Shown piece after piece: positions 45,391-58,751 of a stretch of DNA of 64,000 bases. Within the stretch, counting starts at the first letter, position 1. Each line of letters begins with the position of its first letter. Position numbers and translations under genes: made by a program. The DNA lies in assembly GCA_902774915.1 (NCBI GenBank), contig CACYKH010000012.1, positions 1 through 64,000 of the forward strand, written 5' to 3'. The notes beneath the pieces are model-generated. The model did not search any database. It worked only from the letters and a program-made list of their open reading frames with translations, and was not told where the DNA came from. The DNA comes from an uncultured Lachnospiraceae bacterium (GTDB lineage Bacteria > Bacillota > Clostridia > Lachnospirales > Lachnospiraceae).

Positions 45391-46302
45391 CTAGAATAAG
45401 CCCTTACTAATATAACGGTCGCCTCTATCAGGAAGAATGGCTACGATATTTCCTTCATCTATCTCATCAGCAAGCTTATGTGCTGCATAAAGAGCTGCAC
45501 CAGAAGATGAACCAGCAAGGATTCCCTCCTTCTTTGCAAGAAGTCTTGCTGTAGCGAATGCATTATCATCTGTAATCTTTATAACCTTATCTATAAGTGA
45601 TATATCCATAGTATCTGCAATAAAGTCATTTCCTATTCCTTCAATATCATAATCAGCATGTTCTCCACCGCCTATGATAGAACCATATGGATCTGCAAGG
45701 ACGCCCTTAATATTTGCGTTCTGCTCCTTTAAATACTTTACTGCGCCAGAAAATGTTCCACCGCTTCCTGCGCCAGCCACAAGGTAATCAATCTTCCCAT
45801 CCAGCTGCTTATAAATTTCTGGACCAGTAGTTTCATAATGAGACAAAGGATTAGCAGGATTTTTAAACTGCTTCATGGATATTGCTCCTGGAATAGATGC
45901 AATTATCTCGTCAGCTTTTCTATCCGCTCCAAGCATTCCCTCTTCTCTAGGTGTATGGACAATCTCCGCTCCAAGCGCTGCCATAACACGCTGCTTCTCA
46001 ATAGAGAATTTTTCTGGAACAGCAAAGATAATTCTATAGCCCTTATTAAGAGCAGCAATTGCAATTCCTATTCCTGTATTTCCAGCGGTAGCTTCAACAA
46101 TAGTTCCTCCCGGTTTAAGGATTCCCCTTCGCTCCGCATCTTCGATCATATAAACCCCAACTCTGTCCTTAACACTTCCTGCAGGATTCATAAGCTCAAG
46201 CTTAACAAATAAATTAACACCGTCCTTAATTCCAAAATGATTAAGTTTCAGTATTGGTGTATTTCCTATCATTTCCTGTACACTATTATATACTTCCATC
46301 AT
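45391..46302 (-). CDS. mccA: Cystathionine beta-synthase of the MccA type (O-acetylserine-dependent)
   Basis: 303 residues of the CysK/CBS fold. PLP lysine in 'NPAGSVKDR', phosphate loop 'GSGGTFSGA'. Against CysK, the segments 'VEATAGNTGIGIA', 'VPEKFSIEKQRVMAALGAEIVHTPREEGM', 'KQFKNPANPLSHYETTGPEI' and the end 'ILPDRGDRYISKGLF' match B. subtilis MccA better than CysK. MccA joins homocysteine and O-acetylserine into cystathionine. Middle gene of mccB-mccA-methyltransferase. A plain cysteine synthase is the alternative. Confidence 0.85.
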   Translation of the reverse strand: MMEVYNSVQEMIGNTPILKLNHFGIKDGVNLFVKLELMNPAGSVKDRVGVYMIEDAERRGILKPGGTIVEATAGNTGIGIAIAALNKGYRIIFAVPEKFSIEKQRVMAALGAEIVHTPREEGMLGADRKADEIIASIPGAISMKQFKNPANPLSHYETTGPEIYKQLDGKIDYLVAGAGSGGTFSGAVKYLKEQNANIKGVLADPYGSIIGGGEHADYDIEGIGNDFIADTMDISLIDKVIKITDDNAFATARLLAKKEGILAGSSSGAALYAAHKLADEIDEGNIVAILPDRGDRYISKGLF

Positions 46303-46332: not shown

Positions 46333-47499
46333 TTATATAGAGTTCTGAATTGCATTCTCAAGGTCTTGAATAATGTCATCAACGTCCTCAATACCAACTG
46401 AAAGTCTGATCAGTTCATCAGTTATTCCAACTGCTTCTCTTATTTCTCTTGGAATAGCCGCATGTGTCATTGTAGCTGGATGGCATACCAGTGACTCAAC
46501 TCCACCAAGGCTCTCAGCCAGGGTAACGAGCTCCAGCTTCTTAAAGAACTTCCGATAACTATACTTTTTCTTTAATGTAAATGAAATCATTGCGCCAGGT
46601 CCATCAGCCTGTTTTTTTTGAGTTTCATAACCAGGATCACTCTTAAGACCTGGATAGTAAACCTTTTCAACATAGCCACTTGTTTCCAGCCACTCTGCTA
46701 TCTTGATGGCATTTGCCACATGTCTGTCCATTCTTACGCCAAGAGTTTTGATACCTCTAATCATAAGGTAGCTGTCCCATGGAGCGAGAACCCCACCGAT
46801 AGCATTCTGAAGATAATAAAGTCTGTCAGCTAAATCTCTATCCTTAACTACAATGAAGCCTGACACTGTATCGCTATGTCCTCCAAGATACTTTGTTCCG
46901 CTGTGGACAACAATATCTGCACCGAGTGTAAGCGGTCTCTGAAGATATGGTGTGAGGAAGGTATTATCAACAATAACCTTCTTTCCATATATCTTTGAAA
47001 GCTCAGAAACCTTCTCAATATCTGTAACTGTAAGAAGCGGATTTGCAGGACTCTCAATATATACTGCCTTAATGTTATTAGTTGTTTCACCATCTTCCTT
47101 AAGTACTCTTTCAACCTCATCCAGATTCGATGTATCAACTATCGTATAATCAATTCCAAAGTTTTTAAATACATTATCCAGAACTCTGAAGGTTCCTCCG
47201 TAAATGTTATCTGAAACGATTAATCTATCACCTGATTTAAAAAGTGAAAGAACTGTAGAAATTGCAGCAAGTCCTGAAGCAAATGCCAGTCCATACTCTC
47301 CTTCCTCAAGGTCAGCAACAAGTTTTTCAAGCGCCGCCCTTGTTGGATTTCCTGTTCTTGAATACTCCCAGCCTCTGTCTTCGCCAAGTCCATCCTGTTT
47401 ATATGTAGATGTCTGATATACTGGAACATTTACTGCTCCCGTTGTCTCATCCCCATCTATTCCTCCATGAATTAGTAGTGAATTAATCTTAATACTCAT
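46333..47499 (-). CDS. mccB: Cystathionine gamma-lyase/gamma-synthase family PLP enzyme (MccB type)
   Basis: About 388 residues from the ATG at 47499 (GGAGAG upstream); a longer in-frame start would begin inside the terminator. 'VPVYQTSTYKQDG', 'YSRTGNPTRAALE', 'FASGLAAISTVL', the PLP lysine in 'VHSGTKYLGGHSD', and 'LAESLGGVESLVCHPATMTHA' define the Cys/Met-metabolism PLP family. With mccA next to it, cystathionine gamma-lyase activity (cystathionine to cysteine) is likely, giving methionine-to-cysteine conversion. Its leader contains a cysteine-codon attenuator. Confidence 0.87.
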   Translation of the reverse strand: MSIKINSLLIHGGIDGDETTGAVNVPVYQTSTYKQDGLGEDRGWEYSRTGNPTRAALEKLVADLEEGEYGLAFASGLAAISTVLSLFKSGDRLIVSDNIYGGTFRVLDNVFKNFGIDYTIVDTSNLDEVERVLKEDGETTNNIKAVYIESPANPLLTVTDIEKVSELSKIYGKKVIVDNTFLTPYLQRPLTLGADIVVHSGTKYLGGHSDTVSGFIVVKDRDLADRLYYLQNAIGGVLAPWDSYLMIRGIKTLGVRMDRHVANAIKIAEWLETSGYVEKVYYPGLKSDPGYETQKKQADGPGAMISFTLKKKYSYRKFFKKLELVTLAESLGGVESLVCHPATMTHAAIPREIREAVGITDELIRLSVGIEDVDDIIQDLENAIQNSI

Positions 47500-47523: not shown

Positions 47524-47555
47524 TAAAAAGACCCGAGACGTTATTATCTCGGGCC
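47524..47555 (-). terminator. Leader terminator (attenuator) before mccB
   Basis: GGCCCGAGA (minus strand, 47547-47555) and TCTCGGGTC (47530-47538) form a 9-bp stem with one G.U, followed by U5. It lies 26 bases after the stop codon of the cysteine-rich leader peptide and 25 bases before the mccB start. The 5' arm GGCCCG can instead pair with CGGGCU at 47629-47634 inside the leader peptide gene. Confidence 0.85.
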
Positions 47556-47581
47556 TAAGAATCAACTATTAACCAAGTGTT

Positions 47582-47692
47582 TTATTTACACGACAAACAT
47601 CGGCACGCCAAAACACCGGCCATCTCGTAGCCCGTTAATTTTAACATGCAACAGCAACACATATTATTGTTTTGTCTGTAAATGTTTGTCAT
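47582..47692 (-). CDS. Cysteine-rich leader peptide controlling mccB-mccA by attenuation
   Basis: A 36-codon frame in the mccB leader, MTNIYRQNNNMCCCCMLK..., ending ...ACRCLSCK-stop. Seven of the 36 codons are Cys: four in a row (TGT TGC TGT TGC, 47648-47659) and three near the end. An internal start at 47662 would give a 26-residue version beginning MCCCC. The upstream ribosome site is weak (AGAAAG, 10 to 14 bases before the first ATG). The four Cys codons end 13 bases before CGGGCU (47629-47634), which is able to pair with the 5' arm of the terminator. Ribosomes waiting for cysteinyl-tRNA would leave that stretch free and let transcription continue. The pathway product is cysteine, so the logic fits end-product control. 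Confidence 0.82.
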   Translation of the reverse strand: MTNIYRQNNNMCCCCMLKLTGYEMAGVLACRCLSCK

Positions 47693-47731
47693 ATCCACGT
47701 ACACTTTCTAAAATAATCTTTGAACGAGGAT

Positions 47732-47764
47732 ATATTATCACTATTCACCTACTAAGTCAATAGG
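47732..47764 (-). promoter_or_regulatory. Promoter of the mccB-mccA operon with shared 17-bp motif
   Basis: On the minus strand TTGACT (47755-47760) and TAATAT (47732-47737) are 17 bases apart. CCTACTAAGTCAATAGG (47748-47764) encloses the -35 box and matches the ligase-operon motif at 15 of 17 positions. Transcription would begin near 47725, giving a leader of about 225 bases. Confidence 0.75.
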
Positions 47765-58530: not shown

Positions 58531-58561
58531 CCTTCATTCTCTATAAGAATTAATTCTTTGA

Positions 58562-58645
58562 CTCTTCCCTACGTTGGCATTATCCAAATCAGGTTTACGG
58601 GTCGAAGTTTTTACTTCCTCTCAGCCAGTTCACTAGCTCCCCAAT
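58562..58645 (-). ncRNA. TPP riboswitch (THI element)
   Basis: On the minus strand the leader holds GGGGAGC, then GGCTGAGAGGAAG, ACTTCGACCCG, AACCTGATTTGGATAATGCCA and ACGTAGGGAAG, the conserved TPP-aptamer segments in correct order. It binds thiamine pyrophosphate and, with the terminator at 58497-58530, turns off thiS-thiF-thiG-thiH-thiE when the vitamin is plentiful. The remainder of 58451-58751 contains no gene. Confidence 0.96.
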
Positions 58646-58751
58646 GATATTACTATCATTTCTAACTTTATTAAGTTTCGTGACTAATTCTATTCCTGCT
58701 ACCTGTTTTTGTCAATCATTTCCAAAATTTCTTTTTCGACATCCAATAGAA

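Follow-up and report, generated by a model that had tools for sequence, protein, structure and literature searches.

Amino-acid attenuation mediated by a translating ribosome, as in the trp/his-type attenuators, is a textbook mechanism of Proteobacteria, and Firmicutes are usually described with T-boxes for the same task. The locus considered here, upstream of an mccB-like gene of an uncultured Lachnospiraceae bacterium, raises the question of whether a member of the Clostridia senses cysteine with a translated leader peptide. The stretch of DNA analysed (64,000 nucleotides, positions 1 to 64,000 of contig CACYKH010000012.1, hereafter the window) carries on its minus strand a short frame rich in Cys codons, followed by an intrinsic terminator and by the genes mccB, mccA and a methyltransferase gene. 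An initial annotation, made from the letters alone, had proposed that low cysteinyl-tRNA lets these genes be transcribed. The analysis reported here indicates that the leader is very probably a ribosome-mediated transcription attenuator reading Cys-tRNA and, to judge from its relatives, one member of an element that stands before several sulfur genes, often behind an operator-like box, neither the wider element nor the box having been part of the initial annotation.

Direct reading of the minus strand bore out the Cys-rich short frame with its run of four Cys codons and the three further Cys codons before its stop (codons 30, 32 and 35), and the coordinates first proposed proved correct to within one base (Table 1). 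The ATG lies at 47692-47690 and the stop codon at 47584-47582; an in-frame GTG at 47704 could lengthen the frame by four codons. The three further Cys codons occupy 47605-47603, 47599-47597 and 47590-47588, and the Shine-Dalgarno sequence is weak (AAAG, 4 nt). The own genome of the window holds 26 CCCC tracts, four of them, at three places, in frames with a start codon, and one of these three places is the mccB leader. The pattern MAG[VI]L.CRC was found at 3 sites in 2/397 family genomes. The start codon can also be taken up in a 14-bp helix with the last part of the frame (47694-47681 with 47601-47588); this helix may restrict the leader to a single round of translation, and it was not consistent among the relatives folded.

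Table 1. Features of the cysteine leader, its operon and the candidate regulator in the window
Feature	Coordinates	Strand	Basis or remark
Leader ORF, 36 codons, MTNIYRQNNNMCCCCMLKLTGYEMAGVLACRCLSCK	47582..47692	-	read from sequence; same kind in relatives
First Cys cluster, TGT TGC TGT TGC, proposed sensing codons	47648..47659	-	sequence
Second Cys group, codons 30, 32, 35	47588..47605	-	sequence; role uncertain
Antiterminator strand CGGGCU, region 2	47629..47634	-	sequence; dG -13.9, p 0.056 for window copy
Putative sequestering hairpin 1:2, 5' strand, encloses region 2	47638..47649	-	MFE fold
Putative sequestering hairpin 1:2, 3' strand, pairs with 47638-47649	47603..47616	-	MFE fold
Terminator 5' arm GGCCCG, region 3	47555-47550	-	sequence
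Intrinsic terminator hairpin, 11 pairs, 6 G-C	47529..47556	-	terminator search, MFE fold
Sigma-70-type promoter candidate, TTGACT-17-TAATAT, TG before -10	47732..47760	-	9 of 12 matches
Operator-like palindrome CCTATTGACTTAGTAGG overlapping -35 element	47748..47764	-	sequence; presumed binding protein of Rrf2/CymR type
mccB-like gene, PLP enzyme, cystathionine gamma-lyase/gamma-synthase family	46333..47499	-	family models
mccA-like gene, cysteine synthase / cystathionine beta-synthase family	45391..46302	-	family models
SAM-dependent methyltransferase gene, TIGR00027	44493..45374	-	16 nt after mccA
Rrf2-family regulator, sole Rrf2 match in own genome	24484..24879	+	superfamily model 112 bits, over cut-off

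The names mccB and mccA are putative assignments from family and operon context. The top model of the MccB-like protein is cystathionine gamma-lyase/homocysteine desulfhydrase (538 bits, cut-off 594), and the top models of the MccA-like protein are those of cysteine synthase, with the CysKM cut-off just passed (345.3 bits, cut-off 344.15). A LysR regulator and a MetQ-like lipoprotein gene come after the methyltransferase gene.

The terminator proposed after the frame is present, at a distance of 25 nt from the stop codon, where 26 had been given. The U tract TTTTATAT lies directly 3' of its stem and runs to about 47524; the two strands of the 2-kb region hold 4 terminator-like sites versus 0.9 in shuffles. 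CGGGCU and GGCCCG, for which a mutually exclusive pairing had been claimed, are complementary over 6 bp (five Watson-Crick pairs and one G-U), and the gap between the Cys run and CGGGCU measures 13 nt, as stated earlier. The leader RNA is more stable than its shuffles (z -5.2, 0/200), and its minimum free energy (MFE) fold consists of the 14-bp start-codon helix, a hairpin enclosing CGGGCU (hairpin 1:2, GCAUGUUAAAAU:GUGUUUUGGCGUGC) and the terminator. Taken alone, the antiterminator pairing of the window gave p 0.056 against shuffles; compared with pairing to the arms of other leaders, it beats 46% of all partners and 17% of those within class A (see below). By these models the window copy would be a weak member, weaker than its metY relatives.

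These parts suggest the following course of events. RNA polymerase would start at the promoter and make the leader ORF, which a ribosome would begin to translate. With scarce Cys-tRNA the ribosome would stall on the Cys cluster; its footprint would open hairpin 1:2 and leave region 2 just free at the leading edge, region 2 would pair with the 5' arm of the terminator as that arm emerges, and, with the terminator late or absent, mccB, mccA and the methyltransferase gene would be transcribed. With plentiful Cys-tRNA the ribosome would pass over region 2, or finish and let hairpin 1:2 re-form, and the terminator would fold.

The arrangement recurs before orthologues of mccB, which were gathered by protein search alone, without reference to leaders. 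An MccB match of some kind occurs in 60/61 genus genomes and a match at E <= 1e-130 in 26/397 family genomes; 34 named mccB loci came from one scan of genome contigs. The 71 distinct mccB upstream regions comprised 47 from orthologues at >=72% identity and 24 more distant ones. Under the rule applied to the 47 (a short ORF holding at least three Cys codons within a span of six), a Cys-clustered frame was found in 36/47, as against 1.3 +/- 1.0 in shuffles and 3 of 47 on the reverse strand, and a chance frame was rejected on this count; the next amino acid by z was Met (8 vs 1.6). Two of the 36 (L018, L065) resemble the end of an upstream metY-type gene, so that about 34 remain, and among the 11 without a Cys frame by the strict rule L109, L110 and L120 have a CC leader by eye. 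Close relatives are counted separately in these and all other leader tallies. The codon-conservation check proposed in the initial annotation thus came out positive among close orthologues, where the Cys cluster is kept and the remaining peptide differs between lineages. Homologous leaders lacking the Cys frame, which that annotation had named as grounds for giving up the idea, are the minority among close orthologues and prevail among distant ones, where a similar rule found the frame in only 4/24 (L075 also has a CC leader by eye). Reading of 20 genus metY upstream regions gave a Cys leader in 7 and none in 13. Since both Cys codons are used in 33/42 clusters of three or more, the clusters are not a simple DNA repeat, and this source was rejected.

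Fifty-eight leader ORFs were curated by hand from the scans, so that the terminator and pairing figures given below are rates among chosen leaders; leaving out L102 for want of a terminator by rule gave n=57. Their frames belong to unrelated classes. Class A leaders read MCC(C)RM..xRA...MAG, or close variants, and show a CCCGGGC-type pairing; poly-Cys leaders carry CCCCC(C) and the pairing CAUUCUUCGC:GCGAGGAAUG; in the class MKGSVQTFRRNCCCCCE the frame stops right after the Cys run. At least one Cys follows the first cluster within the last 12 codons in 49/57 leaders. In L218, L015-L017 and L021 the frame closes directly behind the first cluster or two codons later, an indication that the leader can do without the second Cys group. 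A Shine-Dalgarno core of 6-8 nt precedes 40/57. The Arg codon directly after the first cluster is CGA in 24/29 cases (class A). The Arg codon before a later Cys is likewise CGA in 32/33, and CGA makes up 8% of Arg codons in the window, counted in ORFs of 250 aa or more. No pairing partner for a conserved CGAUGU near the frame end was found consistently among the curated leaders.

A terminator follows 57/58 of the curated leader ORFs and, in a narrower stretch, was detected in 55/57 versus 14/171 shuffles. In 43/57 leaders the stretch behind the Cys cluster forms a more stable duplex with the 5' arm of the terminator than shuffles do at p<0.05 (27 at p<0.01), and among those 43 the duplex, counted from the flanking base, begins at a median of 12 nt after the cluster. 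Further loci came from a covariance model of the 62-nt core (R1), whose E-values are rough and whose hits, the model being built from leaders, are not independent evidence for the Cys codons. Its 67 loci included 7 that were unparsed, 19 already represented in the curated set and 41 new ones. A terminator, lying outside the modelled core, was found in 38 of the 41, and all of these (38/38) show significant pairing, with L203 barely so (p about 0.05); two of the 3 loci without a terminator (L184, L197) were apparently mis-parsed. In these further hits the commonest distance from the Cys cluster to the first pair is 11 nt; a misplaced cluster end in L175, L203 and L222 affects the distance figures alone. 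Pairing thus starts mostly 10-13 nt after the cluster.

On average, the leaders also pair better with their own terminator arm than with those of other leaders. Mean pairing energy of region 2 was -20.3 kcal/mol with the arm of the same leader versus -14.6 with the arms of others (permutation p 5e-5, z -10.2, n=57), a preference also seen when the 37 leaders of class A (z -6.2) and the other 20 (z -5.6) are taken separately, and absent in two control segments (p 0.25 and 0.78). By this permutation, which ignores the relatedness of the leaders, region 2 and the terminator arm appear to co-evolve; the antiterminator pairing, for which a covariance check had been proposed at the outset, both recurs and appears to follow its arm. 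Covariation of hairpin 1:2 is weak, its score being reached by 54/500 shuffles and its paired fraction by 15/500. Within columns 15-45 of the core alignment, every row except L129 keeps its internal gaps to lengths divisible by three; alignment A1 left out L075, L110 and L131.

The effect of ribosome position was modelled by shifting a 31-nt ribosome footprint one codon at a time over the 57 leaders; A-site positions are given relative to the cluster end. Nascent-transcript folding was added because full-equilibrium folding shows no switch in the window and in most mccB leaders. The stop-codon state comes out too clean if folding is confined to RNA 3' of the ribosome, and a scan with pairs allowed across the ribosome is the fairer test. 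Upstream RNA held the 5' arm of the terminator with a mean probability of 0.81 when the A site was on the last Cys codon and of 0.81-0.85 when it was on the cluster or up to about 33 nt before the cluster end; the value fell to 0.73 one codon past the cluster and to 0.51 about two codons past (+3), stayed at about 0.40 between +6 and +33, and reached 0.7-0.85 again beyond +42. Since arm-holding falls just past the Cys cluster, the cluster would be the last stall site that leaves region 2 free. The model also agrees with the earlier claim that the pairing begins just beyond the stalled ribosome, placing its start at about the leading edge when the ribosome is on the last Cys codon.

For the window copy itself, the arm was held with a probability of 0.49 without a ribosome; a ribosome on the first Cys codon raised this to 0.67 and one on the last to 0.77, and with the ribosome at the stop codon the value was 0.46. 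Wherever the ribosome stands, the terminator of this copy prevails at full equilibrium (1.00), a behaviour shared by most mccB leaders, and antitermination must therefore be kinetic, taking place during transcription, if the model holds. A ribosome at the stop codon leaves region 2 uncovered, the arm being held at 0.65 on average there, so that the OFF state would depend on the re-forming of hairpin 1:2.

A DNA search of the own genome with the leader region gave, besides the window, a match of 38 nt at the promoter of a gene encoding an O-acetylhomoserine sulfhydrylase (TIGR01326, 598 bits, above cut-off). This second, metY copy comes with a leader of its own, MRSYSLNKTLYEMCCCRMQNSRAVNMAGILTCRCLSLENVR, and a separate terminator; its antiterminator lies around CUCCCGGGCA:UGCCCGGGAG and has a pairing p of 0.003. 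The leader also occurs in the cultured rumen Lachnospiraceae isolates AC2031, NE2001 and P6B14, at loci L088, L093 and L106. Model R1 hits 36/61 genus genomes (46 sites) and 31/299 family genomes (38 sites), the own genome included in both, and 8/291 class genomes, the seven besides the own genome lying in four families outside the order. A separate exact pattern occurs at 9 sites in 7/392 genomes of the order, the own metY included; all nine were leaders by eye, and the reversed pattern, used as a control, matched 4 sites. Sorted by motif, the genes after the 67 model-hit loci were 33 metY-type genes, 12 ABC substrate-binding proteins, 8 mccB-type and 3 MetQ-type genes, and 11 other or not assigned by motif. 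Family scans of single examples of these targets identified an O-acetylhomoserine sulfhydrylase, a PepT-like peptidase above cut-off, parts of a polar amino-acid transporter (cystine models among the hits, all below cut-off) and a MetQ-like lipoprotein, below cut-off.

CymR, of the Rrf2 type, controls cysteine metabolism in Firmicutes. The promoter candidate before the leader is weak alone (9 promoter-like sites in the region vs 6.2 in shuffles), and its arrangement recurs upstream of related leaders; it would give the leader a 5' UTR of about 30 nt. The box CCTA-N7-9-TAGG lies within 170 nt upstream in 40/57 curated leaders, and the operator-like box occurs without a Cys leader at five metY genes (L138, L146, L147, L148 and L150) from the 20 genus metY upstream regions. 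Such boxes are found at sulfur-gene promoters of relatives with or without a Cys leader. The system resembles CymR/Rrf2 control in that its promoter bears a palindrome and the genome encodes just one Rrf2 match; unlike CymR, the Rrf2 protein scores below both the IscR and the CymR equivalog cut-offs (91 and 86 bits, respectively). It is a natural candidate for the putative reader of the operator-like box. Rrf2-like genes, judged by eye, adjoin Cys leaders in L189, L203 and L206.

Other explanations of the locus have to be weighed against attenuation by a translating ribosome. The leader could be a ligand- or protein-binding, riboswitch-like RNA, with Cys codons that are by-products of conserved RNA such as UGUUGUCGAAUG. 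Class A is indeed strongly conserved at the nucleotide level, as in the CGA preference at its Arg codons (24/29 and 32/33), the RNA conservation in L218 runs on past an early stop codon, and a model built on RNA finds the leaders well. Such an RNA is nevertheless improbable, since unrelated classes before the same gene share only the Cys cluster and a mutually exclusive pairing, the core alignment keeps its gaps in threes (in all rows but L129), both Cys codons are used and no Rfam family was reached at threshold. Rfam 15 found in the window at gathering threshold a TPP riboswitch elsewhere only, and relaxed hits in the leader were far below gathering scores; the leader RNA matches none of the Rfam His, Trp, Leu, Thr and Phe leader families and others, and five leader peptides, that of the window included, gave no NCBIfam or Pfam match. 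The peptide itself might act by nascent-chain arrest, sensing metal, sulfide or redox state in the exit tunnel: four to six Cys would make it metal- or redox-reactive, and class A peptides share the motif MCCRM..SRA..MAG. With the Cys residues in the tunnel, however, the ribosome would stand downstream on region 2, a position for which the model predicts termination; moreover, the peptide outside the Cys varies between classes and some frames stop right after the cluster, so that arrest is very improbable.

T-boxes sense tRNA directly, without translation, and the leader might be a Cys-specific T-box or another known tRNA-sensing leader. PMC2940859 places a Cys T-box before ubiG-mccBA in Clostridium perfringens and relatives; the own genome has T-boxes, and the Rfam gathering score is strict, being reached by 1/5 of the hits there. 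These five hits, however, precede leuA-, thrS-, ACT-domain-, pheS- and aspS-like genes (names from reading translations), and 0/38 mccB loci have a T-box at gathering threshold, weak ones being possible there. As the identity of the window leader a T-box was rejected, RF00230 being absent at gathering threshold and among the relaxed matches, and this explanation retains next to no probability. It is scarcely more credible that a chance frame lies before an ordinary terminator, with regulation solely by an Rrf2-type operator at the promoter. The five metY loci with an operator-like box and no leader fit that idea; the 36/47 frames versus 1.3 expected, the co-evolving pairing and the narrow spacing speak against it.

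Attenuation by a ribosome reading Cys-tRNA, the preferred explanation, can be compared with known systems. Like the trp/his type, the element has a short leader ORF with codons for the amino acid of the pathway, a three-segment alternative pairing and an intrinsic terminator. The window provides the codon-rich leader ORF and the terminator before the first gene, and the antiterminator is evident at family level. Unlike that type, it concerns Cys and lies in Clostridia, belongs to no Rfam leader family, and leaves region 2 uncovered when the ribosome is at the stop codon. Poly-cysteine leaderless ORFs of mycobacteria are reportedly, by the title of work from 2020 under the name of Canestrari, cysteine-responsive attenuators. 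Both kinds have Cys codon runs in short ORFs before cysteine operons; unlike the mycobacterial ORFs, the leaders described here have a terminator (57/58 curated leaders) and a Shine-Dalgarno core of 6 nt or more in 40/57, and that of the window, with its predicted 5' UTR, would not be leaderless. Cys-rich leaders in Actinobacteria, mentioned in the initial annotation, are indeed reported in Seliverstov 2005 (PMC1262725), with no conserved terminator hairpin there.

A predicted Cys attenuator, uORFC-8-2, lies upstream of cysS in Rhodobacterales according to PMC8632094. It resembles the present leaders in its conserved AUG, two tandem Cys codons and intrinsic terminator and differs in occurring in other bacteria, before cysS alone, and in having its Cys codons inside the first stem. 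No cysS was seen among the downstream genes looked at here, of which 11/67 were not assigned by motif. The Cys T-box of ubiG-mccBA, as presented in PMC2940859, shares the operon function, a presumed tRNA-Cys charging signal and premature termination; it differs in that no T-box was found at the window leader, even in the relaxed search. Leader-peptide attenuators of Firmicutes are on record in PMC2965389, which also mentions trp/his-type attenuators, for hisZ/hisS* of bacilli, and in PMC5794164 for ilv-leu of Staphylococcus aureus. As described there, these too have a leader peptide where a T-box might be expected, for other amino acids and in other taxa and with no cysteine case. The main text of PMC6429828 has uORF candidates and no cysteine case. 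The initial annotation knew of no such attenuator before mccAB in Clostridia, and in open PMC main texts, which are part of the literature, none was found in Lachnospiraceae or before mccAB or metY. The kind of element is known; what appears new is this particular family, together with the bacteria that carry it and the genes it precedes.

Taken jointly, the leaders are on balance likely to form a new family of attenuator RNA, a cysteine-sensing layer of a sulfur regulon in Clostridia that would mostly be double-gated and take the place of the T-box of other Clostridia. The core would read UGYUGYCGAAUG - CCCGGGCA - AUGGCUGG - terminator, and the family would extend over metY, mccB, amino-acid/methionine transporter and peptidase genes and a sulfonate-degrading enzyme, with some lineages carrying before mccB unrelated poly-Cys leaders with a different pairing instead. 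Sulfur metabolites would gate initiation, through the Rrf2-type operator, and Cys-tRNA would gate elongation. Sulfur genes of rumen Lachnospiraceae and of further Clostridia would then be preceded by a cysteine version of attenuation. At one operon, lineages show the same logic with unrelated sequences, a natural experiment on the minimal needs of such a switch: probably a cluster of Cys codons and, about 10-13 nt further on, a segment to pair with. The element predicts cysteine sensing in anaerobes that are hard to engineer, and the covariance model could be used to annotate cysteine-regulated genes.

Some further elements were noted. The TPP riboswitch of the window lies at 58549-58653 on the minus strand (69.4 bits). 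A T-box-like leader of the own genome (L212, C8:62562-62835; 80.5 bits, below gathering score) stands before an ACT-domain protein gene, shortly downstream of the O-acetylhomoserine sulfhydrylase gene. At L202:1734-3059, a Cys leader core (model E 3.6e-4) precedes a (2S)-3-sulfopropanediol dehydratase-like glycyl radical enzyme, present as a fragment (715 bits, cut-off 1000), a placement hinting at sulfonate use under cysteine control.
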